The notes beneath the pieces are model-generated. The model was not told the DNA's origin. It ran no database searches and saw only the letters and a program-made list of their open reading frames with translations. Below, piece by piece: positions 3,360-26,495 of a DNA stretch of 26,495 nt. Both the position numbers and the translations under genes were made by a program. The stretch is from a virus, in the IMG/VR virus record IMGVR_UViG_3300028840_005312, positions 1-26,495 of that record. One strand, given 5' to 3'. Position 1 is the first letter of the stretch; every line of letters begins with the position of its first letter.

Positions 3360-3527
3360 TTATGGAAGGTGTATGTACCAAAGATAAATTAACATACCAA
3401 TAAAAATTAGAGTTGTCAAGAGATTTCCTAATCCTGCAATAAATTTTATTGCCAATCTTGTATAGAGGTATCGGAAATCTCTTTTGCCTTGTTTCGATAG
3501 TTCTGAATATTTGATTTCGTTTTTCAT
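3360..3527 (-). CDS. small membrane protein, 55 aa
   Basis: The start at 3527 (MKNEIKYSELSKQG) lies one base after the stop of the upstream gene and suits coupled translation. Longer starts (ATG 3566, TTG 3572) would overlap that gene and lack a ribosome binding site. The N-terminal half is charged, then one hydrophobic segment spans about residues 26-50. It probably is a single-pass inner membrane protein. The TTGACA-N17-TATGTT promoter for the acidic gene lies in its 3' part. Confidence 0.65.
   Translation of the reverse strand: MKNEIKYSELSKQGKRDFRYLYTRLAIKFIAGLGNLLTTLIFIGMLIYLWYIHLP
3390..3418 (-). promoter_or_regulatory. sigma70-like promoter for the acidic small gene
   Basis: On the minus strand TTGACA (3418-3413) is followed after 17 bases by TATGTT (3395-3390), the same pair as at 1139-1167. 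It lies inside the coding region ending at 3360 and would give a transcript that starts about 35 bases before the ATG at 3347. Confidence 0.5.
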
Positions 3528-3528
3528 A

Positions 3529-3744
3529 TTATTTGAGATATTTACGAATGATTTTTGTATATTCATGGTCAAAAAGAATGTTGTTCAGGAAATAGGTTCT
3601 TTTGTTTTTGACCAACTTAGAGACCTTGTGTATGGGAGCACCAAGATTTTGAGCAATGTCAAGAATCATTTCAGCATCAGTAGAGGATTCATTGTTTGAA
3701 AGCTCTTGAGCAGCATAGGAAATTTTCTTTGAAGTCAGTATCAT
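3529..3744 (-). CDS. hypothetical protein, 71 aa
   Basis: The ATG at 3744 (MILTSKKISYAAQELSN) is chosen because AAAGGAA stands 6 bases upstream; it follows directly after the stop of the previous gene. The sequence looks helical, with a segment EMILDIAQNLGAPIHKVSKL that resembles a small helix-turn-helix-like fold, and ends basic. A DNA-binding role is only a guess. Confidence 0.7.
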   Translation of the reverse strand: MILTSKKISYAAQELSNNESSTDAEMILDIAQNLGAPIHKVSKLVKNKRTYFLNNILFDHEYTKIIRKYLK

Positions 3745-3755
3745 TTGGTATTCCT

Positions 3756-3956
3756 TTATTTTACAATCCATATTTTCATCAGGTCTTGAGCAGCATCTTT
3801 ACGGGATTTGGCAACCACCTTGTTACTGTCTGTTAGACTATGACTCCAACCACTACCCTGATAGCTGTTCCATGTTTTGAATACATAACCATAAAGAGTT
3901 TTTCCATCATCTGAATGAACTGAATATTCATCTTCACGTACTTTCTTGAATTTCAT
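3756..3956 (-). CDS. small hypothetical protein, 66 aa
   Basis: The in-frame ATG at 3986 lies at the expected transcription start of the promoter at 3992-4015, so the real start is taken as the ATG at 3956 (MKFKKVREDEYSVHS), with AAAGGAA 6 bases upstream. The protein looks like a small beta-rich domain with a GWSHSLTDSNKVVAKSRKDA segment; its C-terminal helix DAAQDLMKIWIVK is like those of short DUF-type phage proteins. First gene after the operator-linked promoter. Function unknown. Confidence 0.7.
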   Translation of the reverse strand: MKFKKVREDEYSVHSDDGKTLYGYVFKTWNSYQGSGWSHSLTDSNKVVAKSRKDAAQDLMKIWIVK

Positions 3957-3991
3957 TTTGATTCCTTTGTTTGCTGTTTTGTTCATGACTA

Positions 3992-4032
3992 TATATACAG
4001 CAATATATATGCCAATATATACAATTTTTTTT
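3992..4032 (-). promoter_or_regulatory. operator-linked promoter core A
   Basis: On the plus strand TATATA (3992-3997), AGCAATATATATGCCAA (3999-4015) and a T8 tract (4025-4032) match, in order and at the same offset, the TATA box, AGCAATAGATATGCCAA and A/T tract at 16312-16362. The -35 position is ATATAT and so poor, which suggests the promoter needs an activator. It drives the genes from 3956 leftwards. Confidence 0.6.
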
Positions 4033-4087
4033 ATTGAATGATTACAGTTGTTTATAATCCGAGTATATACGGCATATATATGTTTTG

Positions 4088-4113
4088 TGACAAATTATGT
4101 CATTTGTATGACA
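4088..4113. promoter_or_regulatory. phased TGACA/TGTCA operator A
   Basis: TGACA (4088-4092), TGTCA (4098-4102) and TGACA (4109-4113) are spaced with 5 and then 6 bases between them. Their centres are 10 and 11 bp apart, one helical turn. The same order and spacing occur at 16428-16463. It lies about 90 bp upstream of promoter core A and also just after the stop of the gene at 4115. Confidence 0.65.
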
Positions 4114-4114
4114 A

Positions 4115-4531
4115 TTATTGCCACCATGAAGGAACTAAAACAGATTCATGTACATTGCCAATATATGATGGAGTGATTAACTCAACTTCAGGATCATCCT
4201 TCTTTAGCTGTTCCATGACTTCCTGAACTTCATTTTGGATATCGGGAATTGGTTCAGGATCAGGCAATGATTCAAGCACTACATCAGGAACAGGGACATC
4301 AGGGATATCATCCGAGAAAATAATATCCATTCCCCTTGCTTCACGTAAGACCATCATGAGGAATCTCTTGTTGGTTTCGCCTATCTTAAACAGAAAGGTC
4401 TTGAAGGTCTTGTCATTCTCACTTCTGAACATATAAGATTTCCTGTCAATCGCCTTGGTTGAGATGAGACCGTTCTTTGAAATGTTATAAATATACTGCT
4501 CTTTCAGTTGTTCATATGTTTCTTTATTCAT
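4115..4531 (-). CDS. hypothetical protein with Pro/Asp-rich middle, 138 aa
   Basis: AAAAGGAGAAT stands just before the ATG. Residues 1-75 look like a compact domain (MNKETYEQLKEQYIYNISKN to REARGMDIIF). From about residue 76 a repeated acidic Pro-rich stretch (DDIPDVPVPDVVLESLPDPE) forms an extended linker, followed by a short helix and a PSWWQ end. The linker suggests a two-part adaptor-like protein. No family recognised. Confidence 0.8.
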   Translation of the reverse strand: MNKETYEQLKEQYIYNISKNGLISTKAIDRKSYMFRSENDKTFKTFLFKIGETNKRFLMMVLREARGMDIIFSDDIPDVPVPDVVLESLPDPEPIPDIQNEVQEVMEQLKKDDPEVELITPSYIGNVHESVLVPSWWQ

Positions 4532-4543
4532 TATATTCTCCTT

Positions 4544-4903
4544 TTATTTGAATACTTCTGCTTTTACTTCTATTGTTTGAGGCCATATGATACCTGTATA
4601 GGGTCCATAAGGTTTCCCCTTGCCATTCTTTAAGGTCTTTTGCATATTCTCAATAGCTTCTTCTTTTGTGCCATATGACCTTGAATAGATAACACATTGA
4701 CCATATACATCATATACTTCAAATCCCCATCCACCAAATTGATATACCCTTACTTTCTTTGTAGTTGGAATAGGCTTGATAGGGGGAATGAAAGGTTTTG
4801 ATCTCCAATTACAATTTGTACACCTGAAGATATTTCTTCTTTGTGTTGTCAATATCCTATCTACATCTTTAAATCTACATCTTGGGCAATATTTCAGTTC
4901 CAT
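4544..4903 (-). CDS. zinc-ribbon protein, 119 aa
   Basis: The N-terminus holds a four-Cys zinc ribbon (C6, C9, C28, C31). After a Pro-rich linker (PFIPPIKPIP) comes a second domain with VRVYQFGGWGFEVYDVYGQC and KEEAIENMQKTL, which looks like a small alpha/beta fold. AAAGGA lies 7 bases before the ATG. Zinc ribbons of this type often bind nucleic acid or stabilise small regulators; no family is claimed. Confidence 0.8.
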   Translation of the reverse strand: MELKYCPRCRFKDVDRILTTQRRNIFRCTNCNWRSKPFIPPIKPIPTTKKVRVYQFGGWGFEVYDVYGQCVIYSRSYGTKEEAIENMQKTLKNGKGKPYGPYTGIIWPQTIEVKAEVFK

Positions 4904-4914
4904 TGATTTATCCT

Positions 4915-5091
4915 TTATATGTGTATTTCAAATCCAAAAAAAGAAAGGCATCCACAATGAGGGCATTTGGGGATTCCTTTTTCCATATCTATACCTTCTA
5001 TCCATGTTATATTATCGGGAATAGGTTCATATTCCATTTCTTCAGGTCTGAATATATGCTTGCAGTTTTCATTATTACATATATACATCAT
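4915..5091 (-). CDS. small zinc-binding protein, 58 aa
   Basis: The frame MMYICNNENCKHIF carries C5, C10, C43, C46 and C48, a probable zinc ribbon with a charged middle. The ATG follows one base after the stop of the upstream gene, whose last codons supply the AAAGGAA ribosome binding site. The next gene starts 12 bases after its stop. Length, coupling and composition support a real gene. Function unknown. Confidence 0.7.
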   Translation of the reverse strand: MMYICNNENCKHIFRPEEMEYEPIPDNITWIEGIDMEKGIPKCPHCGCLSFFGFEIHI

Positions 5092-6938: not shown

Positions 6939-7202
6939 TTAATGTTTATATCCACATAGGGAACACCCAAAAGTTTCTACTGCTTCCATAACATTTCTAC
7001 ATTTTGGACATAGTTCTGATTCCCTATAACAATCACATTTATGTTTTATGAGATTTCCATCTAAATCTATATAAGGTACTGCTCTCATATGTTGATACCA
7101 AGGAAGGGGATAAGTACAATTAATCCACTCTTTAATGGATTCTGTATTATGTAGATGTTCCATTATCTGACCTCTATATAAACACAGTTCACATGTTGTC
7201 AT
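6939..7202 (-). CDS. Cys-rich zinc-binding protein, 87 aa
   Basis: Cysteine pairs lie at C4/C7 and in the C-terminal third (CDC, CPKC, CSLC). The last two CxxC pairs are 12 residues apart and would form a zinc ribbon; the middle is Trp/Tyr/Pro-rich. Its ATG overlaps the stop of the peptidyl-tRNA hydrolase gene by 4 bases, so the two are co-translated. Function unknown. Confidence 0.75.
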   Translation of the reverse strand: MTTCELCLYRGQIMEHLHNTESIKEWINCTYPLPWYQHMRAVPYIDLDGNLIKHKCDCYRESELCPKCRNVMEAVETFGCSLCGYKH

Positions 7203-7582
7203 AATAATTTTAGACTCCCTGTAATCTTGTCGATTTCATCAGACCAATATGGTCCTATGGCAATAGCAGTATAAGTAGGTACACCATTGAATTCAGTCTT
7301 TCCTGAATCCCTTATTACAGAATATGGAATGCCTGAACGTCTTGCATCATCCGATAGCATAAACAATTCTTGTTCTGTATTAACAGATAATACCACCTTT
7401 GTAAAGCTGTTCTTCAACCATATACACAATGGAGACCTATCCCTTTTGGATAAAGCACTAAATAATGCTTTAGGATTCTTTAATACAACACTCAAAGATG
7501 CATGAGCACCTTGAGCTATCATTTTACCTTTCCTCATATTCAAGTCCTTTCTAAGGACTATCACTTGTTTTACTTCTCTCAT
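7199..7582 (-). CDS. peptidyl-tRNA hydrolase, Pth2 family
   Basis: This 127-aa protein carries the Pth2 signature in order: KQVIVLRKDLNMRKGKMIAQ with GAHAS (residues 5-29), KVVLSVNTEQEL (62-73), IRDSGKTEF (90-98) and AIAIGP (106-111). Family members cleave peptidyl-tRNA to release free tRNA and are typical of archaea and eukaryotes, with scattered bacterial and phage copies. Full length for the family. GGAAG stands 5 bases before the ATG; the gene starts within the end of the upstream membrane gene. With three tRNA genes in the window, tRNA recycling or protection during infection is a reasonable role. Confidence 0.9.
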   Translation of the reverse strand: MREVKQVIVLRKDLNMRKGKMIAQGAHASLSVVLKNPKALFSALSKRDRSPLCIWLKNSFTKVVLSVNTEQELFMLSDDARRSGIPYSVIRDSGKTEFNGVPTYTAIAIGPYWSDEIDKITGSLKLL

Positions 7583-10820: not shown

Positions 10821-11144
10821 TTATCTCCTTATGTAATCTCCATGATAATATTTATATGTAAGAAGCTTCTCAATTACTTGACCGTGACAGGGTTTTGGAT
10901 GACACCAACATATGAGGTTAATTTGTGAATGTTTGATTAGGTTTGCAAATAGAATATGTAAATATTCTGTTATCTCTTTATCTTCTTCTATTAATTTTCT
11001 TATTATCCAATTCTCATATTGATTTATTGCTTCTTCTCTTGTGAGATATTTGGATACCTTGAAAGGATTGCCTAAAGGAGAAGGTCTGCCTATATAAAAG
11101 CCTTCTCCTTGATAGGTCTTTTTATTTCTAATATTTATATTCAC
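10821..11144 (-). CDS. DUF4326 family protein
   Basis: The protein has the two hallmarks of DUF4326: GRPSPLGNPF (residues 19-28) and LICWCHPKPCHG (77-88), with Cys/His residues that may bind metal or form an active site. It is of family length (107 aa). The start is GTG, supported by AAGGA 8 bases upstream. DUF4326 genes are common in phages and sporadic in bacteria; the biochemical role is unknown to me. It is the first gene after the tRNA-Ser pair. Confidence 0.85.
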   Translation of the reverse strand: MNINIRNKKTYQGEGFYIGRPSPLGNPFKVSKYLTREEAINQYENWIIRKLIEEDKEITEYLHILFANLIKHSQINLICWCHPKPCHGQVIEKLLTYKYYHGDYIRR

Positions 11145-13456: not shown

Positions 13457-13975
13457 TTATCTCCTTATTAGATTGAAATTATCATCTCTTTTTTTCATTA
13501 TTTCTATAATCTGATCAAACGATACAGGGTAGAAACCATTATTGTCAACGCCTATATCATGTTGTTTTCCTATAGGTGGAAGACCACCATGAGAATGCCC
13601 ATAAAGCATGAAACTGTTATAATGACTCCTAGCCCAAACTCTCATAGCATAATGACATACTACTATATAATGTCCTTTAATTTTACGTTCCCATACTTGT
13701 TGTGAATGTCTCCAAGGAATCCAATAATCATGAGACCCTTTAAGAAATATTTGAGTACCATTTAGTCTATTAATATAATCTCTATAAACACTTTCTCTAT
13801 TATGTCTTAATGTGAAATCACCTGCATTGATAACTATATCATTCTTTTTCACTACAGCATTATGATAGGTAATAAGAATTTCGTTCATTTGTTCTATAGA
13901 ATCAAATGGTCTCTTACTATATTCAATTATATTTTGATGACCATAATGTTGATCAGATGTAAACCAATAATTCAT
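13457..13975 (-). CDS. calcineurin-like metallophosphoesterase
   Basis: The metallophosphoesterase motifs are in order: SDQHYGH (D8, H10), GDF (D53), GSHD (80-83), CHYA (H108) and GHSHG (H127, H129). At the third motif the usual GNHD has Ser in place of the metal-binding Asn (S81). Such phage enzymes hydrolyse phosphomonoesters or diesters, often of nucleotides. Full length for the short phage type (172 aa). Its ATG overlaps the stop of the SLOG gene by 4 bases and the Qng1-like gene starts 4 bases after its stop, so the three are made together. Confidence 0.85.
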   Translation of the reverse strand: MNYWFTSDQHYGHQNIIEYSKRPFDSIEQMNEILITYHNAVVKKNDIVINAGDFTLRHNRESVYRDYINRLNGTQIFLKGSHDYWIPWRHSQQVWERKIKGHYIVVCHYAMRVWARSHYNSFMLYGHSHGGLPPIGKQHDIGVDNNGFYPVSFDQIIEIMKKRDDNFNLIRR

Positions 13976-14355
13976 ACTATTATAATTCTCTCCTTTGTAT
14001 TTAGTTTGACAAACTTCTTTAAAGTGTCTTCTGAACCACCTGAATCTCTTGATAGAACATCATCTATTGATTCTGATGGTCTTACAAGACAAGATATAAT
14101 GAAGTCCGAATTTTGAGCAATGAGGGTGTTTCTAGCGAAATATTCTTTAGCAGTATGTTTCTTTGGGGGGAATAAGAGGATGGGGATTCCATAATCAAAT
14201 GCAATCTTTTCTGCAAATGCATCGCCACCTTTTGGGCAATGACCACTTACAATCCAATCACCATCTTCATAGATTTCAAAAAATGCATCATGTACGATTT
14301 GATAATCTGTTCTAATGTTTCGTTTTCTAGTTCCTATGATTCCTATTTTTTTCAT
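13972..14355 (-). CDS. SLOG-domain protein (DUF2493/YspA-like)
   Basis: A Rossmann-like nucleotide-binding fold is indicated by GIIGTRKR (5-12), IVSGHCPKGGDAFAEK (35-50), PIL (58-60), ARN (74-76), and a GG-x-x-x-T element (106-111). DUF2493/SLOG proteins bind nucleotides or nucleotide-derived ligands; some process or sense them. Length is typical (127 aa). It overlaps the phosphoesterase gene by 4 bases, suggesting a shared pathway. No strong ribosome binding site precedes the ATG. Confidence 0.8.
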   Translation of the reverse strand: MKKIGIIGTRKRNIRTDYQIVHDAFFEIYEDGDWIVSGHCPKGGDAFAEKIAFDYGIPILLFPPKKHTAKEYFARNTLIAQNSDFIISCLVRPSESIDDVLSRDSGGSEDTLKKFVKLNTKERIIIV

Positions 14356-17008: not shown

Positions 17009-17923
17009 ATGTTTATGACAGAACTTGAAACGACTGATACCACTTTTGCCATGAATGAAGCAGGACACAATTTTACTGTTGAAAAACAAGCTTTGGTTAC
17101 TGATCAGGGGATTGATGCTCCTAATCATGTAGGTATTGTCCGTACTGACAATCAGGAATATCTTGGTACTGTTGGTAAAGGATGGGAACCTGTTCAGCCT
17201 GAAGCAATTTATGAACTTGCTGAATCTATGCTTGAAGCAACAGATGGTCATATCAATGGTGTTTTCAAGATGTTCGGTAGTTCTGTTATGGGTATTTCCT
17301 TCAAAATTGCTGATCGTGAATATGTTGAAGGAGACCCTATTGACTTGAATTTTATCATGATGAATGCTTTTGATGGTTCTCATGGTGTTGCAGGTCATGC
17401 TACCACTACCCGTAGGATTTCACAAACTGTTGCTAATCCTTCCAAGAAGGTTTACAATTTGCGTCATACGAAAAATGTTGCAAATCGTATGCAGGTTGTC
17501 AAAAATATGATCAAGCATTTCAAGAAAGAAATCGCTATTTTTGACAAAAAAATGGAACGTCTTGTTGCTCAAAATATGAGTCAGCAAGAAGCAGTTGATT
17601 GGTTTCGTGGTCTTTTTCCTGCTCCTAAAACCAAACGTGCTGAAGTTACCCTTGAAAATCAGGTTGAAATTTTCATTGATTGTCTTGTCAATGGATATGG
17701 AAGTGATATTGCAGGTGTTAGGGGAACACGCTATGGTGCTTATCAGGCATTGACTGAATACATCAATCATCATAAATCCATCAGGATTTTTAATGATCGT
17801 GATGAAGAAGAAGTTCGATTTCAGTCAATTCATTTTGGAAGTGGAAGTGACTTGAATCAGAAGGGTTTGAGCACCCTTACCTCAAGCTTCACTTTTAATG
17901 AAGATGATTTCATGATTGATTAA
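17009..17923 (+). CDS. DUF932 family protein with the C-terminal tag
   Basis: This 304-aa protein has the DUF932 (phage/plasmid-like protein) pattern: LGTVGKGWEPVQPEAIYEL near residues 50-70, a GVFKMFGSSVMGISFKI strand, and ATTTRRISQTVANPSKK. Plasmids and phages often carry it, but the biochemical role is unknown. It ends FTFNEDDFMID, the shared acidic peptide seen on eight minus-strand proteins, even though it lies on the other strand under its own promoter. AAAGGAG stands 7 bases before the ATG. tRNA-Trp follows 12 bases after the stop, with no terminator between. Confidence 0.88.
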   Translation: MFMTELETTDTTFAMNEAGHNFTVEKQALVTDQGIDAPNHVGIVRTDNQEYLGTVGKGWEPVQPEAIYELAESMLEATDGHINGVFKMFGSSVMGISFKIADREYVEGDPIDLNFIMMNAFDGSHGVAGHATTTRRISQTVANPSKKVYNLRHTKNVANRMQVVKNMIKHFKKEIAIFDKKMERLVAQNMSQQEAVDWFRGLFPAPKTKRAEVTLENQVEIFIDCLVNGYGSDIAGVRGTRYGAYQALTEYINHHKSIRIFNDRDEEEVRFQSIHFGSGSDLNQKGLSTLTSSFTFNEDDFMID

Positions 17924-18978: not shown

Positions 18979-19938
18979 TTAAAGACCACCTTTTAAACCA
19001 CTAACACCACCTTTTTCACCTGGAGTTACTTTAGGTGCTGTAGAAGTAACTCCATATGCTTTATATGAATCAGATTCTTCTTTACTTATAATATTAATAA
19101 TACTACCACTTTCAATTGTACTTGCATATAATGGACTCATATCCATGAATGTTAATTGAAGATTAACACTTGAAGGAAGTCCATTTACATATGGAGAATT
19201 CCATGTAGGTTGAACACCAACTAATGCACATGTGGTATATTTGATGAATGCTTTAGGATATGTCTCTATACTCCACATATAAGGAAATTCTATATTAATA
19301 TCACTTATTAAATCAGGAGATGAATATTTCATTAATTCTTGAACAGGCTTTATTAATATGTCTTCAGGGGATGTGCCCGGAACTGATTCACTAAATAATT
19401 GAAATTCAAATACTATCTGTCTTCTATCGGAATTTGTATAATATAATGGTGTATCAACTTTGATAGGGGGAATTCTTGTGCCAGGAACTGCTTTATAAAC
19501 CTTATTTACATACTGTTCAATACTTGTTCCCTCATCTGCTGTTGCAGAACTAAATGTATTTTTAACAGCATCAGCAAGGTTAGCTTCACTTCCAAATACA
19601 TTAGCCATACCTCTTACTTCTGAACCTAATTTAACGGCTGATCTGACCTTCTGAGCTAGCCTAGAAGCAACTGATTCATATGCTTCCCAATGATGTACAA
19701 TGTTTTCATTTAAATTCAATGGTGCAAGAAATAGGAAGTCTGTATTGATTTCTTGAACGGCTACTGTACCTGCTCCTTTAGAAAATTGATCTAATATTTT
19801 TTTTGGAGTCATGCTTATCCATACAGAACCATTTTTGCCACTTGCTATCTTAGATGACCAAGGCGAAAGTTTCATAGGTCTCTGATATCTAATACCACCT
19901 GTATTCATGCTTTTGCTTTTATATAATGTAGTTGCCAT
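18979..19938 (-). CDS. gp48-like baseplate/tail-tube cap protein
   Basis: A 319-aa protein at the downstream end of the tail operon, next to the tape measure. The C-terminal third (WSIETYPKAFIKYTTCALVG, PSSVNLQLTFMDMSPL) resembles the tube-like domain of T4 gp48/gp54, which link the baseplate to the first tube ring. Size is close to gp54 (320 aa) and gp48 (364 aa). Its ATG overlaps the tape-measure stop by one base. The assignment rests on position and partial similarity. Confidence 0.6.
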   Translation of the reverse strand: MATTLYKSKSMNTGGIRYQRPMKLSPWSSKIASGKNGSVWISMTPKKILDQFSKGAGTVAVQEINTDFLFLAPLNLNENIVHHWEAYESVASRLAQKVRSAVKLGSEVRGMANVFGSEANLADAVKNTFSSATADEGTSIEQYVNKVYKAVPGTRIPPIKVDTPLYYTNSDRRQIVFEFQLFSESVPGTSPEDILIKPVQELMKYSSPDLISDINIEFPYMWSIETYPKAFIKYTTCALVGVQPTWNSPYVNGLPSSVNLQLTFMDMSPLYASTIESGSIINIISKEESDSYKAYGVTSTAPKVTPGEKGGVSGLKGGL

Positions 19939-21650
19939 TAATCAAGTTCCCCACTATAGTTTTTAACCGATACTAATCCATTATCTATCTCATCAGGTAT
20001 TTGTTTTACATCCCCACCACCACCTGATTGATTGTTTTGACTCATAGCAGCAAGTGTATTTTTTGTTACATCAGATTTTCTATTTCTTTCCATTTCTTTT
20101 ATGGCATCAACAGCTTGTTCCATACTTTTTGCTGATTGAACATTATTTTTAATTTTTGCTGATTCAGTTTTATTTACAGCATCAATAGGAGAAAGTGTAT
20201 TACCTCTATCCCAAATTTCTTGTTTCCTTCTTTCACGTTCAGCTTTACCAAAAGGATCAGGAACAGCAACTCTTAATTGACCCCCACCCGTTGGAGTTGG
20301 TAAGTCTTCTCCTGGAAAAATTTTATTCCAAAGATTAGTAATTGTACCTGCAACTCCTGAAACAATAGAAGAAATTGAATCTAATATAGGTCCAAACCAT
20401 TTATCTATTCTATCACCAATATTTTTTATTACATTATCTGCTCCTGCTTTTATTTTTTCCATGAATGTTCCTTCAGTACCAAAAAAACCTTCAAAGAAGT
20501 CTATAATAGGAGCAAAAGGATTAAAATCTAATATAAAATCAAGGAATCCTTGAATACTATTCATGATATTATCAGCAACACCTTCTATCTCTATACCAAA
20601 CCATCCTGCTACTTTTTCCACTAACCATCCAATGAATTTAACAGGCAATTCTATAAATCCCTTAAGTGCTTCCCATAAACCACCTTTGATTTTATCCCAA
20701 AGAGTACCTTCTGTATCTTTAAATCCTTTTATAAAATCAAATATACTCATTAAAAGAGTTACAGGCCAACCTAACCATTTGAATCCAAATTTAAGTCCTT
20801 TTATAATTCTTCCAAGTATAGGCATCTTTTTAGCGATATCCATAAACTTAGTAGAATAACCTTTAAGTTTAGTAATCCATTCTCCTATCTTAGCAAAGAA
20901 AGGTATTTTCTTAAGACCTGTAAAAAGATTTCCTAATTTGGCAAAAATAGGAATAGAAGATGTTATTGCAATAAGCTTTCTATGTAACCATGCTCCAAGT
21001 CCTGCTGCAATAGTAAATAATATAATACCAAGAGTAGTCCATACATCACCCTTTTTCTTCTTTCCAGAACCTTCCAAAAAATCCATCTTCATTTCTTTTA
21101 CTTGAAGCTTATACATATCACTTAATGTCTTAAGCATTTTACTTGCCCATTTTGGAGTTTTAGAAAAAAAGAATTTGAATGTTCCTACTGCAAATCCTTT
21201 GATAGAGTCTTTAATAGAACCTAATAATTCAAACCATTCAGATTCTTCTCCAAATAAACCAAGAAAATGTGATTTAAGAGCACTAAAGAAATTCTGAAAA
21301 TGATTCTTTATTCCCATAGCCATTTTACCAATGCCCATAGCAACACCTACAGTCATTGTTTTGAACATGCCTTTCACCATTCCTGCCATGCCCAAAAACT
21401 TTTTGGCTTGATCATCTTGTTTCTTTATGAATTTACCGTTTTCATCTCTTAATCTTTCAGTAAATTTTCTTTTTTGTTTCTGCTGTTCTTCTTCTTCAGT
21501 AACAACATCAAACCATTTATTAATAGCTTGACGTTCCTTTTCATTCATACTCTTAATTTGAGCAGAATTACCAACATATATCTTTAGAATATTAACAGCA
21601 TCATCTACTGTTTTATTAAGTTTTTTTAATTCGGTATCTGTGTTAGCCAT
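19938..21650 (-). CDS. tail tape-measure protein (T4 gp29 position)
   Basis: A 570-aa, mostly helical protein with many GLF/GF repeats, a coiled N-terminus (1-85), a hydrophobic segment (about 204-222, GIILFTIAAGLGAWL) and repeats such as DTEGTLWDKIKGGLWEALKG and GTEGTFMEKIKAG. This is typical of tape measures, which set tail length and may enter the host envelope. T4 gp29 has 590 residues, so a tail of about T4 length is expected. It lies directly after the frameshift chaperone and before a baseplate gene, the usual place. Confidence 0.8.
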   Translation of the reverse strand: MANTDTELKKLNKTVDDAVNILKIYVGNSAQIKSMNEKERQAINKWFDVVTEEEEQQKQKRKFTERLRDENGKFIKKQDDQAKKFLGMAGMVKGMFKTMTVGVAMGIGKMAMGIKNHFQNFFSALKSHFLGLFGEESEWFELLGSIKDSIKGFAVGTFKFFFSKTPKWASKMLKTLSDMYKLQVKEMKMDFLEGSGKKKKGDVWTTLGIILFTIAAGLGAWLHRKLIAITSSIPIFAKLGNLFTGLKKIPFFAKIGEWITKLKGYSTKFMDIAKKMPILGRIIKGLKFGFKWLGWPVTLLMSIFDFIKGFKDTEGTLWDKIKGGLWEALKGFIELPVKFIGWLVEKVAGWFGIEIEGVADNIMNSIQGFLDFILDFNPFAPIIDFFEGFFGTEGTFMEKIKAGADNVIKNIGDRIDKWFGPILDSISSIVSGVAGTITNLWNKIFPGEDLPTPTGGGQLRVAVPDPFGKAERERRKQEIWDRGNTLSPIDAVNKTESAKIKNNVQSAKSMEQAVDAIKEMERNRKSDVTKNTLAAMSQNNQSGGGGDVKQIPDEIDNGLVSVKNYSGELD

Positions 21651-21651
21651 A

Positions 21652-22577
21652 TCATTTTTTCTCTAAAGCTTTTCGTTCTTCTTCCATATCTCTTATTAAA
21701 AGATTTACATAAATTTCTCTTTCAAAGTCTGCTAACATATTACTTTCTACAGGGGATATATTACATTTCTTAGCAAGTGCATATTGCTGTTCTAAAATAT
21801 TCTGAAATGATCCCCACAGATTAATTATCCAAAAAAATTTTGCTGAATCGGAACTTCATACGAATGATCTGCACCACAATGTACACACTTAACTTTATTT
21901 TCTAATTTAATTCCAAATGCCATATCATCAATAGTATTTTTTATTTTCTCCATTAAACCCATTGGCATCTGCTCAATAAAATACATTCTATCCTTCATTG
22001 AAATGTTTTCATCCATTCCATTAGGTGTTTCTATTTTATCTATTGCACATGCTTGAAAGGCAACTTGGAACATATATGCTATCTGATGCTCTGTCATATT
22101 CTTTGGAAACAATTGTGGTTTTATATCTTCTATTTGATGCTTCCTTTTCATATGTCTTAAATGAACTTTTACTTTGTCCAAATTAATAACAACATTGTCT
22201 TTATTTTCAAGTTGTATAACTTCAAGGGTATCAAGGTTTGTTCTATTTAAAAATTGTGAATTACAAGAAGAACATGTAACCTTGCTTTCTATTACTTCAC
22301 CCTTTGTCTTTTTTCTGATTTCAATTAAGAGGAACATTCTATCATAGATATATTGTTCTCTTATATCAAATCCATCAGTCAAAACACTTGATGATATTAA
22401 CTCATCAAGTGCTTGTTCTTGGACTACATAATTAGTTTCATTCTCATATGTGAGAAGCTTTTTGATTTGACCTGTTGTTACAGGTTTAAATTGAATTGTT
22501 TGTTTACTTCCCGGCAATTCACAAGTAAAATCATATACATTAACAAAATCATAAAACTTAGGTTTATTATCTGACAT
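21652..22577 (-). CDS. probable -1 frameshift product of the gp26-like gene (308 aa)
   Basis: A -1 shift on the slippery run at 21831-21841 would join residues 1-249 of the gp26-like protein to a 59-residue extension that begins WIINLWGSFQNILEQQ and ends RKALEKK at 21652. The extension frame has coding character but no start codon until a Met 32 residues in, and it has no ribosome binding site of its own. Tail chaperone genes between tube and tape measure use -1 frameshifts in many phages, so the arrangement supports this reading. Confidence 0.75.
21825..22577 (-). CDS. gp26-like baseplate/tail-chaperone protein, unshifted form
   Basis: A 250-aa protein resembling the T4 baseplate hub gp26 family, with a zinc-binding pair of CxxC motifs (C102/C105 and C231/C234). 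Positions around VVQEQALDELISSSV and HQIAYMFQVAFQACAID are helical. Family members help assemble the central hub; here it sits at the tail chaperone position between tube and tape measure. CTCC/GGAG ribosome site precedes the ATG. It ends QQNFFG at a slippery run that would give a longer form. Confidence 0.7.
   Translation of the reverse strand: MSDNKPKFYDFVNVYDFTCELPGSKQTIQFKPVTTGQIKKLLTYENETNYVVQEQALDELISSSVLTDGFDIREQYIYDRMFLLIEIRKKTKGEVIESKVTCSSCNSQFLNRTNLDTLEVIQLENKDNVVINLDKVKVHLRHMKRKHQIEDIKPQLFPKNMTEHQIAYMFQVAFQACAIDKIETPNGMDENISMKDRMYFIEQMPMGLMEKIKNTIDDMAFGIKLENKVKCVHCGADHSYEVPIQQNFFG
21831..21841 (-). promoter_or_regulatory. programmed -1 frameshift site
   Basis: On the minus strand the reading frame is CAA AAT TTT TTT GGA TAA. 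This includes the heptamers A-AAT-TTT and T-TTT-TTT, both classical X-XXY-YYZ slippery sequences, two codons before the stop. No strong stem-loop after the site or Shine-Dalgarno-like stimulator before it is obvious. Confidence 0.75.
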
Positions 22578-22594
22578 TTTTTCTCCTTTTTACA

Positions 22595-22602
22595 TATTTA
22601 TT
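22595..22602 (-). promoter_or_regulatory. possible late promoter box before the gp26-like gene
   Basis: AATAAATA on the minus strand differs by one base from TATAAATA and lies 18 bases before the ATG at 22577. Weak on its own. Confidence 0.3.
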
Positions 22603-22607
22603 ATATA

Positions 22608-23153
22608 TTATTGTGCTCCACCTGTTTCTGTAAAACTTAATTCATGGTAACTGTAAGTAAATGTTACATCAAAGGTAGCAATTTCTGTTGAAGCATAATC
22701 CATTGTAATTTGTGAAACTTCTTTAGGCCATGCATCATGAAGTACGAATTCAAGAATTACTTGTCCCTCATATCCAATCATCTGTAATCTTTGATCAACC
22801 ATATAAACGTCATGAGTTGAATAAAAGTTATTTACAGGGTTATGGCATAGATTAGACCATTTTTCGAATGTGTTTCTAATCTTAGCATTAATATCAACAT
22901 TGAATGTAATTACTACATCTGTATATGTGTGTTTGCCCGGAAATTTCCAATCAAATCCTTGCCAATTTAAGACAACTTCCTCTAAAGCTGTTGAAGGCAT
23001 TTGAGCAGTTTTAACCATATAGATAGCATCCTGTTGATTAACATCAGGTGTTATTGCAGGCCATTGTGGTTGATAGTAAAATAAACTTGATTTTGCTCCA
23101 TCTCCAAATCTTGCTTTGAAAGCTTCTATGTTAAACGCTCTTACATCAGGCAT
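22608..23153 (-). CDS. tail tube protein, T4 gp19-like
   Basis: The 181-aa protein matches the gp19 type: an N-terminal FNIEAFKARFGDGAK arm, TAQMPSTALEEVVLNWQGFDWKFPG near residues 49-73, YTDVVITFNVDIN, HDVYMVDQRLQMIGYEGQVI and LHDAWPKEVSQITMDYASTE before a final FDVTFTYSYHEL strand. It forms the inner tube inside the sheath. AAGGAG precedes the ATG and a TATAAATA box lies 20 bases upstream. Confidence 0.88.
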   Translation of the reverse strand: MPDVRAFNIEAFKARFGDGAKSSLFYYQPQWPAITPDVNQQDAIYMVKTAQMPSTALEEVVLNWQGFDWKFPGKHTYTDVVITFNVDINAKIRNTFEKWSNLCHNPVNNFYSTHDVYMVDQRLQMIGYEGQVILEFVLHDAWPKEVSQITMDYASTEIATFDVTFTYSYHELSFTETGGAQ

Positions 23154-23172
23154 TTTTTTTTCTCCTTATATC

Positions 23173-23180
23173 TATTTATA
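23173..23180 (-). promoter_or_regulatory. T4-late-type promoter box before the tube gene
   Basis: TATAAATA on the minus strand (23180-23173) is the T4 late promoter consensus. It lies 20 bases before the ATG of the tube gene and just ahead of AAGGAG. The same octamer precedes the sheath gene. Confidence 0.5.
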
Positions 23181-23182
23181 TA

Positions 23183-23521
23183 TTATTTTGCTGCTTTTAA
23201 TGCTTTTTGAATAGCTCTATTTATTTCTCCAACTAATGTACCAAAAGCATCATTCCATTCTTTTCCTGGCTCAAATGAAGCTTGTTTTAATGGCAATAAC
23301 TTTTGTAGTTTTTTTGTTGCCATATCCTTATCAGCCATTATCAATCTAGCCATCCATCCTGCTACTTCTTGGGTATCAGAAGTCATTTCATTTAAATTAT
23401 CTATATGCTCCTTTAATCCCATAATCTGATCTTTACCTTTTCTTTTTTGTTTCTTCTTTCCTTTTCCATCCATTTTTCCTGAACCATCACAAGCTTCAAG
23501 AAAGTTTTCAAATCTGCTCAT
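23183..23521 (-). CDS. small virion-associated protein of unknown role, 112 aa
   Basis: It lies between the sheath and tube genes in the tail operon. A short N-terminal helix is followed by a Gly/Lys linker (GSGKMDGKGKKKQKRKGKDQ) and a helical domain (NEMTSDTQEVAGWMARLIM, EWNDAFGTLVGEINRAIQ). AGGAG lies before the ATG. Position suggests a tail assembly or completion factor; no homology is recognised. Confidence 0.8.
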   Translation of the reverse strand: MSRFENFLEACDGSGKMDGKGKKKQKRKGKDQIMGLKEHIDNLNEMTSDTQEVAGWMARLIMADKDMATKKLQKLLPLKQASFEPGKEWNDAFGTLVGEINRAIQKALKAAK

Positions 23522-23538
23522 ATCAATCTCCTATATAA

Positions 23539-23555
23539 GGGGGGATATACCCCCC
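23539..23555 (-). promoter_or_regulatory. G6/C6 hairpin between sheath and next gene
   Basis: GGGGGG (23539-23544) and CCCCCC (23550-23555) form a very stable stem with a 5-base loop, just after the sheath stop codon. On the minus strand it is followed by TTATATAG, not a proper T-run. It may partly end transcription or protect the 3' end of the abundant sheath mRNA. Confidence 0.6.
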
Positions 23556-23561
23556 ATTATT

Positions 23562-25355
23562 TTATTGTGGTGCTGATGCAGCAACTAATTCTGTAAAGCT
23601 TGCACCCGTTTTAGTAGCAATCAGGTTCAAGACAATAAATTCTGCTGTTCTTGTAGGCTTGATATAAATATCACACCATAATTCGTTTCTATCAATTCTT
23701 TCAGCAGTATTATTTCTATCATCACAAACAATCAGATAATCAAATATGCCCCTTCTTGCAACAACATCTCTTAAGAATGGATCAATCATATTAATAATTG
23801 CCAATCTTGTAAAAGTATCATTAGGTTCAAACAAGAAGTATTTTAATGCTGTACTAACTGCCTTACCAACTATGATGAATAATCTTCTAACATTCACTCT
23901 ATTGAATGCTGAAGATTTATCAAGCATGTTCTTCTGACCCCAAACCACTTTCCCCTGTCCTGGAAAACTAACAATAGGATTAAGACCGTTCTTATAAAGA
24001 ATATCTCTTTCACCTTTAACAGGATTCCATGCAAGTTTTCTAACTTGATTGATTATTCCTCTATTCAAACCGGCAGGAGCAAACCAAGGCTCACTTACAT
24101 CATCCGTATTTGCGTAAATTCCTGCTACATGTCCTGATGCAGGAACCCACCTATATTTTGAATTCCATTTATCATATACATTCAGCCAATTTGAATATAG
24201 AGCAACATAAGATGTATTGATATTTAAAGTATTTAATCTATAGTCTCTACAATCAGTTGCTTCATTTCCTTTATTATTAACAACTAAAGACTTAGTAACA
24301 TCCAATACTCCTACTGCATCTGCTCTTGACTCGCAAATGGTATTAATATATATTTTAATGGTATCAGACTTTCCACTATCAATGAAGATATTAACATCAA
24401 TTGATTCAGGATCACTATAAAGGTCTAATGCTGCTTGAATATCACCATCAAGAATTGAATCACCTTGACTTCTAACACCACCACCTAAATTAGTATAAGT
24501 GGTTTGATATTTGTTTTTATAGCTTTTATTCTTAAATGCTGCTGTAGTTGCAACTCTAATATAATTAGAATTAGAGTTAATCCAATTCTCAACAAAAATA
24601 TTAGCACCTTCATCATTAACTTCTGTTGGATCAGAACTTACAAGATGTGCCTCAACCACTTCATAAGGTATAGGACTCTTTGTAATATTCTGTTGTTTAG
24701 CTCTTTTAACTAAAATTAAGAATTGTTTATCAGTATTAAAAGCAGCATCTACAGATTGATCAAGATCATCATATAGAGTAGCTGAAATTCCTAATGTTGC
24801 TGCTGCTGTACCTGCTCTAACACCATTATATACATCTCTACCAACGATAGCAATTTGAAGGTAATTTCCCCATTCCCCTCTACTTTGTGCAATAAATGCT
24901 ATTTCTGAACCATTTTCAGGTCTTCCAACATCGAATGTGGTTTCTTCATTACCAAATTCATCAGGGTCTTGAGAATCCAAATCAGATAACTGATATGCAT
25001 TTCCTGAAACATACTGTGTGAATGTTCCACCTGATACAACTGTTCCATATGCTCCTGAAAAGGTAGCACTTGGAGCTAATACTCTTGTACAATACAAATT
25101 ACTTCCATATTGAAGAAAACCCGCACCTGCTATAATGTCTTCATAAGATTGACCACGGACACCTGTAACTGCTTCTTCAGGAATACCAAAAGTTTCAATC
25201 AACTCATCAATATTATTAATTAATTGAGTCTTTAATTCCGGTCCTTTCCATGTGTCTCTCAATATAAGAACACCTATCGAAGTTGCTACAGCAGGGATAG
25301 TTGTAGTTAAATCAATTTCATTCACGTCCACTAAAGGACTTAGATACATTGTCAT
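23562..25355 (-). CDS. tail sheath protein, T4 gp18-like
   Basis: A 597-aa contractile sheath subunit. The N-terminus (YLSPLVDVNEIDLTTTIP) and the C-terminal core (FTRLAIINMIDPFLRDVVAR, ERIDRNELWCDIYIKPTR, FIVLNLIATKTGASFTELVA) are typical of the gp18/phage sheath family, whose core domain is built from both chain ends. It contracts to drive the tube through the envelope. Two further sheath-derived genes lie directly upstream. AGGGAG stands 7 bases before the ATG; the leader holds a small hairpin and a TATAAATA box. Confidence 0.93.
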   Translation of the reverse strand: MTMYLSPLVDVNEIDLTTTIPAVATSIGVLILRDTWKGPELKTQLINNIDELIETFGIPEEAVTGVRGQSYEDIIAGAGFLQYGSNLYCTRVLAPSATFSGAYGTVVSGGTFTQYVSGNAYQLSDLDSQDPDEFGNEETTFDVGRPENGSEIAFIAQSRGEWGNYLQIAIVGRDVYNGVRAGTAAATLGISATLYDDLDQSVDAAFNTDKQFLILVKRAKQQNITKSPIPYEVVEAHLVSSDPTEVNDEGANIFVENWINSNSNYIRVATTAAFKNKSYKNKYQTTYTNLGGGVRSQGDSILDGDIQAALDLYSDPESIDVNIFIDSGKSDTIKIYINTICESRADAVGVLDVTKSLVVNNKGNEATDCRDYRLNTLNINTSYVALYSNWLNVYDKWNSKYRWVPASGHVAGIYANTDDVSEPWFAPAGLNRGIINQVRKLAWNPVKGERDILYKNGLNPIVSFPGQGKVVWGQKNMLDKSSAFNRVNVRRLFIIVGKAVSTALKYFLFEPNDTFTRLAIINMIDPFLRDVVARRGIFDYLIVCDDRNNTAERIDRNELWCDIYIKPTRTAEFIVLNLIATKTGASFTELVAASAPQ

Positions 25356-25370
25356 AATTTTTCTCCCTAT

Positions 25371-25389
25371 TTTAGGTTAAATACCTAAA
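25371..25389 (-). promoter_or_regulatory. small hairpin in the sheath mRNA leader
   Basis: TTTAGGT (25371-25377) and ACCTAAA (25383-25389) pair across 5 bases, between the late promoter box and the ribosome binding site of the sheath gene. It may stabilise the mRNA 5' end, as leader hairpins do for other phage late mRNAs. Confidence 0.4.
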
Positions 25390-25407
25390 GCTTCTATATC
25401 TCATATA

Positions 25408-25415
25408 TATTTATA
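25408..25415 (-). promoter_or_regulatory. T4-late-type promoter box before the sheath gene
   Basis: TATAAATA on the minus strand lies in the only gene-free gap of the tail operon, about 53 bases before the sheath ATG. In T4 this octamer alone defines late promoters, read by gp55 with gp33 and the sliding clamp. No gp55 or gp33 gene is in the window. Confidence 0.5.
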
Positions 25416-25446
25416 TTTTTTAATAAAAAAAAATAATTTCTCTTTA

Positions 25447-26223
25447 TTAAGTTCCAGGAGTAGGTACAGGATCAAGTTCAAATTTTAGATTAAATTGTGA
25501 CCCATCAATAGTTTCTACTGTCATCCAACTAAGTCTTTCATTTAATGAACTTATATTAAGAATGCCACCACTTACATTATTAAAAGTAAGAGTAGTTGAA
25601 CCTGGCCCATTATCATCTCTAACACGAATATTTACATTAGAAGTATTACCGGATATACAATATATAATTATATCAGGTGAATATGAACTCCATGAATTCC
25701 CCCCTAAAAAGAGTTTTCCATCTACATCAGATAACCATCCTTCATCAACATCTACATATGATCCTGTTACTGGAATCCAAAATACTTCATTGCAACCATT
25801 AAGATCATCACAGTCAATTCCAAGACATTTTGCTGAACTTGAACTTGAAGAAGAACTTGAGCTTACTGAACTTGAACTTGAACTTGTAGAAGCACCTAAT
25901 ACATCCATAGTTCCATATGCTCCTGCAAATGTAGCACTAACAGGTAATACCCTTGTACAATATAGATTACTGCCATATTGTAAAAAACCTACTGCTGCTA
26001 TTAGGTCTTCATAAGACTGACCATGTTCATTGTCAACTGCTTCTTCAGGTCTACCAAATATTTCAATCAATTCATCAATAGTGTTGACTAACTGAACTTT
26101 TAATTCCGGTCCTTTCCATGTATCCCTTACAACTATTACGCCAATAGATGTTGATACAGCAGGTATTGTAGTTGTTAAATCAATCTCATTTACGTCCACT
26201 AATGGACTCAAATACATTGTCAT
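25447..26223 (-). CDS. chimeric protein: sheath N-terminus, serine linker, new domain
   Basis: Residues 1-105 closely follow the full sheath (MTMYLSPLVDVNEIDLTTTI up to GAYGT), then the sequence changes to a serine tract (about 112-130) and a 128-residue domain with C133, C138 and C144 that seems beta-rich (GNTSNVNIRVRDDNGPG, TTLTFNNVSGG). The rest of the sheath, including its C-terminal core, is absent. It may insert by its N-terminal part into the sheath or baseplate and display the extra domain outside, perhaps for binding. AAAGGAG precedes the ATG. The domain is not recognised. Confidence 0.8.
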   Translation of the reverse strand: MTMYLSPLVDVNEIDLTTTIPAVSTSIGVIVVRDTWKGPELKVQLVNTIDELIEIFGRPEEAVDNEHGQSYEDLIAAVGFLQYGSNLYCTRVLPVSATFAGAYGTMDVLGASTSSSSSSVSSSSSSSSSSAKCLGIDCDDLNGCNEVFWIPVTGSYVDVDEGWLSDVDGKLFLGGNSWSSYSPDIIIYCISGNTSNVNIRVRDDNGPGSTTLTFNNVSGGILNISSLNERLSWMTVETIDGSQFNLKFELDPVPTPGT

Positions 26224-26242
26224 ATTTTAATCTCCTTTTATA

Positions 26243-26495
26243 CTATGGTGCTGTTGCAGCAACTAATTCTGTAAAACTTGCGCCTGTCTTTGTAGCTATC
26301 AAGTTAAGAACAATAAATTCTGCTGTTCTTGTAGGTTTAATGTAGATATCACACCATAATTCGTTTCTATCAATTCTTTCAGGACTATTGTTTCTGTCAT
26401 CACATACGATTAAATATTCAAATATTCCTCTCCTAGCAACTATGTCTTTTAAATAAGGATCAATCATATTAATAATTGCTAATCTTGTAAAACTG
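26243..26495 (-). CDS. second tail sheath paralogue, 3' part
   Basis: The C-terminal 83 residues of a sheath protein lie here; the frame continues past the right edge. FTRLAIINMIDPYLKDIVAR to SFTELVAATAP matches the end of the full sheath at 23562-25355 with few changes, almost all conservative. The phage thus carries at least two sheath-type genes in tandem, separated by the chimera. Confidence 0.88.
   Translation of the reverse strand, partial: SFTRLAIINMIDPYLKDIVARRGIFEYLIVCDDRNNSPERIDRNELWCDIYIKPTRTAEFIVLNLIATKTGASFTELVAATAP

Follow-up and report, generated by a model that had tools for sequence, protein, structure and literature searches.

Within the 26,495-nucleotide stretch analysed here (IMG/VR record IMGVR_UViG_3300028840_005312, positions 1 to 26,495; hereafter the window), part of the genome of an uncultivated T4-like phage with a contractile tail, an intact tail sheath gene lies next to two partial ones whose products, when aligned to the intact protein, together cover one whole sheath chain without a gap. 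We think it reasonably probable that these two products are the halves of a single two-chain subunit, which would display an extra domain within an otherwise normal sheath.

The three sheath-derived genes

A sequence-only reading of this DNA had reported three neighbouring sheath-derived genes, and all three are real and lie where it placed them, on the minus strand. The full-length gene (23562..25355, 597 aa) belongs to a region (18979-25355, minus strand) that also holds tail tube, T4_baseplate protein, tube-cap-like and tape-measure-like genes. By profile and by fold it encodes a gp18-like contractile sheath protein over the whole chain: it matches PHROG family phrog_23 across residues 2-593 (E 1.9e-100), carries both Phage_sheath_1 (PF04984) and Phage_sheath_1C (PF17482) above the Pfam cut-off, and its AF2 model (pLDDT 79.9) superimposes on T4 gp18M (3foa_A) with a Z-score of 32.1 and an rmsd of 2.6 over 360 residues.

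The neighbouring gene (25447..26223, minus strand, 258 aa) is a chimera. Its first 106 residues (25906..26223) are 81% identical to residues 1-106 of the full sheath (E 1e-53), an assignment that also draws on alignment to gp18 and on a dN/dS of 0.08; they are followed by a serine tract that forms the linker (residues 112-130; 25834..25890) and by a fast-evolving appended domain of 128 residues (25450..25833). As it matches the sheath over residues 1-106 only and is devoid of the conserved C-terminal sheath domains (PF04984, PF17482), the chimera is not a sheath protein on its own, and the earlier view that it cannot be an ordinary subunit holds. The appended residues gave no match in Pfam or PHROG. 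A homologue exists only in the relatives L003 and L012 (43% identity), one scan of viral sequences returned three known contigs only and none among cultured phages, and a scan with the domain of the L009 chimera retrieved only itself. An AF2 model of the window's appended domain, built on a 2-row alignment, had a pLDDT of 39.7 and contained strands only. We found no chimera among cultured phages: 39 of 39 tblastn matches were restricted to the N-terminal part, and these lay at the start of sheath genes wherever the record was annotated.

The third gene runs off the window, which holds its C-terminal 83 codons (26243..26494, minus strand); the encoded stretch shares 90% amino acid identity with sheath residues 514-596. 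The remainder lies on a second contig, L045 (3300017963_004321; positions 3509-4947), whose last 213 bp equal the window's first 213 bp on the gene strand (213/213, contig end to contig end). The join rests on this perfect overlap between contig ends; a further contig, L018, duplicates the window's end at 99.97% identity and stems from the same metagenome as L045. On L045 the gene starts with MAFFQYSVNNGYILSDF..., equivalent to sheath residue ~111, has its own Shine-Dalgarno sequence and sits directly behind a tail-tube paralogue, which is the same array start as in L003. It spans sheath residues ~111-597 and is missing the first ~110. What had been described as another sheath copy does carry a sheath C-terminus, but it is headless, beginning at residue ~111 in the L045 extension as it does in L003. 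Without the N-terminal arm and the first core strands, the headless proteins of L003, L045 and L115 are not sheath proteins by themselves either. Across these loci the N-terminal pieces match the sheath from residue 1 to ~106-113 and the headless pieces begin at ~110-111. The C-terminal core that the chimera was said to have lost is indeed absent from the chimera itself, but it is encoded by the adjoining headless gene.

Cut site, selection and recurrence in relatives

Residues 4-98 of the sheath align to gp18 residues 3-89, and by extension of this alignment sheath residues 106-110 correspond approximately to gp18 97-101, so that the split falls at about gp18 residue 97/98. In gp18, domain I comprises residues 98-188, domain II residues 88-97 and 189-345, domain III residues 24-87 and 346-510, and domain IV residues 1-23 together with the C-terminus; domain I juts out from the sheath and does not touch neighbouring subunits (PMC3004832). 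This mapping and the AF2 sheath model, in which predicted strands at 101-104 and 108-110 flank the cut, place it near the junction of domains II and I, at the base of the exposed domain. The chimera's N-fragment contains the N-terminal arm, the first part of domain III and the first strand of domain II. Given a cut at the base of the exposed domain, the new chain end could carry cargo outwards.

Both sheath pieces are kept under strong purifying selection, like the intact sheath. In single-pair Nei-Gojobori comparisons of window/L045 with L003, dN/dS was 0.08 (0.03-0.16) for the N-piece, 0.10 (0.06-0.15) for the headless gene and 0.09 (0.05-0.13) for the full sheath; for the appended domain, again from a single pair, it was 1.32 (CI 0.86-1.98), which is not significantly different from 1. 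In the N-piece the constraint reaches beyond the arm: the core-packing residues 24-106 evolve as slowly as they do in the full sheath. Selection thus preserves the pieces as sheath-like protein and leaves the appended domain to diverge quickly, and the N-fragment's dN/dS of ~0.08, together with the independent relatives, contradicts the notion of an inactivated sheath with a random tail.

The same constraint accounts for the similarity of the C-termini. Over the C-terminal third, the headless gene differs from its own full sheath at a pS of ~0.6-0.7, compared with ~0.35-0.5 between orthologues, and this high synonymous divergence between paralogues means that their 90% likeness reflects purifying selection and not recent copying. 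The description of the C-termini as nearly identical is therefore apt at the protein level but not at synonymous sites, and the gene conversion that had been suggested at the ends of the copies is not supported. Elsewhere in the gene, L045 headless residues ~100-160 show 93-95% amino acid identity and a pS of 0.35-0.39 to the window's full sheath, and 88% identity and a pS of 0.44 to the L003 orthologue; these comparisons hint, though weakly, that gene conversion took place inside the L045 headless gene, around its middle.

Among the gathered loci the commonest arrangement is a tube paralogue followed by a single sheath gene. Chimeras are found only in a small group around the window (window/L018, L003/L012, L009 and L022) and paired N- and C-pieces in window/L045, L003 and L115, so that the arrangement recurs across metagenomes 3300017963, 3300040801 and 3300031379. 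The array of L003 (3300040801_001636) consists of the tube paralogue, a headless gene (493 aa), chimera A (317 aa), chimera B (418 aa) and the full sheath (603 aa). The two chimeras share an N-piece that is 95% identical and have different domains behind their serine tracts, the last domain of chimera B being the one homologous to the window's appended domain (43%). In L115 (3300031379_000273) the pieces stand in their natural order: the N-piece covers sheath residues 1 to ~110 and ends in STSASSSSSSLSSAQPS and a stop, the C-piece begins at residue ~110 33 bp further on, and each carries its own Shine-Dalgarno sequence. This pair directly follows the tube paralogue, the position of the single sheath gene in relatives; the contig ends inside the C-piece, and a full sheath gene beyond it is possible.

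In the tree of C-pieces the headless genes of L003 and L045 fall into a single clade (100/100) and L115 groups with the intact L009 sheath (99/96), from which it follows that a split at the same site arose at least twice; the tree of N-fragments, made from a short alignment, resolves origins poorly. L009 and L022 each have a chimera and a full sheath with no headless gene in the available sequence (L022 being an 81 kb incomplete record), so some chimeras may not need such a partner; this is the strongest argument against pairing being obligatory. The genome collection contributed one MAG contig (L182), with an intact-type sheath that is 5'-truncated at the contig end. Several candidate split sheaths were excluded: L128, L156 and several C-only ORFs as contig-edge truncations, and L133 as a frameshifted sheath. 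Frameshift or sequencing error was likewise rejected as the cause of the split, the joint being made up of a serine tail, a stop, an intergenic Shine-Dalgarno sequence and an ATG.

A probable two-chain subunit and its alternatives

In the reading that we favour, the chimera would supply the N-terminal handshake arm and the first core strands and helices (gp18 domains IV and III, residues 1-106), and the headless protein would supply the whole remainder of the chain, beginning with protruding domain I. We infer that the halves associate non-covalently, in the manner of TssB and TssC of the type VI sheath, and that the pair is incorporated into the sheath. Because the chain leaves the core for the protruding domain at the cut, the new C-terminus of the N-piece would point outwards, and the extra domain would hang outside on the flexible serine linker, where it probably assists the phage in attaching to its host. 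The sequence-only reading had already suggested that the chimera could decorate the tail and expose a binding domain; we too regard such a display as the likely role, though as one that we infer.

The normal sheath, with its own late promoter, would provide most subunits, so that the tail would be a mosaic with some positions decorated. The motif TATAAATA, the T4 late-promoter consensus, occurs within 120 bp upstream of ~71 of 91 distinct full sheath genes, as against 3.7% of random stretches from the same loci. It shows no overall enrichment in the window (9 found, 6.9 expected), and it is therefore its position that counts. The leader of the window's full sheath (25356..25446, minus strand) contains TATAAATA at 25408-25415, a small hairpin and a Shine-Dalgarno sequence. 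The TATAAATA leader is absent before the chimeras and headless genes of the window and L003 and before the L009 chimera. The L022 chimera has one TATAAATA at a different spacing and without the hairpin leader, and the L115 N-piece has the full sheath-type leader with TATAAATA and hairpin. In the window's phage this promoter difference would make a mosaic with fewer split subunits likely. The hairpin (e.g. agctttaggtatttaacctaaa) lies between TATAAATA and the Shine-Dalgarno sequence of full sheath genes in the window's group (window 25356-25446; L003 upstream of 4381; L019 upstream of 1920) and is possibly an mRNA stabiliser for a highly expressed gene.

A different possibility is that the chimera acts alone, capping the ordinary sheath or decorating it like a collar by docking on an end ring, at the neck or at the baseplate, with the headless protein as a separate specialised subunit. 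The L009 and L022 chimeras, with their lack of a visible headless gene, would suit such a role, and a location at the neck is plausible, with a tube paralogue just before the sheath that is Ser-extended in several relatives and a gp15-like stabiliser a little further upstream. We nevertheless regard it as unlikely: N-piece residues 24-106 are constrained, and in gp18 they fold into domain III with the C-terminal half; a headless core deprived of the N-terminal part would leave that site exposed; and the exact complementarity is found in two lineages. That the complementary pair builds something other than the sheath wall, such as a collar, whisker or specialised ring near the neck, seems rather improbable to us. 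The chimera and headless gene do lack the strong sheath promoter and so may be low-copy, and the tube paralogue and the gp15-like sheath stabiliser adjoin the pair, but in L115 the pair occupies the main sheath locus with a sheath-type promoter.

Decay after a duplication often first shows as a partial copy beside the intact gene, and these genes could be dismissed as decaying products of a tandem sheath duplication or as an assembly artefact. This is very improbable and largely refuted, given dN/dS values of 0.08-0.10, open frames, Shine-Dalgarno sequences and an arrangement that recurs in different metagenomes; no result here points to decay or artefact. A wider proposal, which we rate as slightly less likely than not, is that T4-like phages, like type VI secretion, divided a one-chain sheath into two chains, doing so at least twice and each time at one and the same exposed position, with the resulting chain end serving as a cassette for interchangeable displayed domains, and that the main sheath of L115 is perhaps obligately two-chain.

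Known systems and neighbouring genes

The window's full sheath shares fold and domain order with T4 gp18; the difference is that gp18 is one chain, whereas the second sheath of the window's phage is encoded as two complementary chains. A closer parallel to the pair is offered by type VI secretion, of which a split contractile sheath is a hallmark. There, the handshake strand and two of the core strands come from TssB1, and TssC1 forms all else (PMC5807055). TssB/TssC (VipA/VipB) resemble the phage pair in how the sheath subunit is divided, with the N-terminal arm and the initial core strands on a small chain and everything further on one of ~490 aa. Unlike type VI systems, the phage retains a full single-chain sheath beside the pair, its small chain finishes with a serine linker and a variable domain where the type VI chain has a helix, and its sequence is gp18-like, the families matched being phage sheath families. 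TssB/TssC chains were not among the best 50 structural matches of the full sheath model, which is no evidence against a topological parallel.

Two sheath genes in one phage are also known from the jumbo phage PaBG, but both of these encode whole sheath proteins (PMC7412058) and neither is split. Sheath proteins often hold extra Ig-like domains within one chain (PMC9230969). The 936 lactococcal phages extend their tube protein by a frameshift and possess neck modules, and some of these additions bind host cells; in them, as in lambda and SPP1, an additional C-terminal adhesion domain is borne by some copies of a tail subunit (PMC6669499), which is similar to what we propose for the window's phage. 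The domain of those phages extends an entire tube protein, frequently through a frameshift, whereas here it sits on half a sheath subunit. No report of a split phage sheath was found in the literature searched, which included few subscription papers. If our explanation is correct, it shows a route from a one-chain to a two-chain sheath, and points to mosaic decorated sheaths in uncultivated T4-like phages. It would also pinpoint where a naturally occurring split in a contracting nanomachine accommodates cargo, a position that could readily be used for display in engineered, harmless laboratory phages.

The tube paralogue upstream of the sheath often ends in a serine tract, and several relatives have C-terminal Ser-linked extensions, with whole proteins of 348-1614 aa. 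Extended forms are found at L022:4548-7004 (818 aa), L009:608-2410 (600 aa), L115:1119-3608 (829 aa), L114:585 (ORF of 1614 aa) and L020:6841-7887, the extension domain being a lectin-like Laminin_G_3 in L022 and SPRY in L115. Given such extensions in the window's group, this lineage seems to display domains on its tail proteins habitually by way of serine linkers; the tube paralogue of the window's own phage (L045) is plain, at 180 aa. Somewhat further upstream lies the gp15-like sheath-stabiliser gene, and between the two sits a gene for a J-domain (DnaJ-like) protein of ~350 aa (L045:1532-2593, also L020, L021 and L023; PF00226 just below the cut-off), possibly a tail-assembly co-chaperone. 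Elsewhere, the window encodes a peptidyl-tRNA hydrolase PTH2 (7199-7582, minus strand; PF01981, E 5e-34), and three further minus-strand genes carry DUF4326 (10821-11144), a calcineurin-like phosphoesterase (13457-13975) and a weak SLOG/DprA-like match (13972-14355), with DUF932 on the plus strand at 17009-17923.
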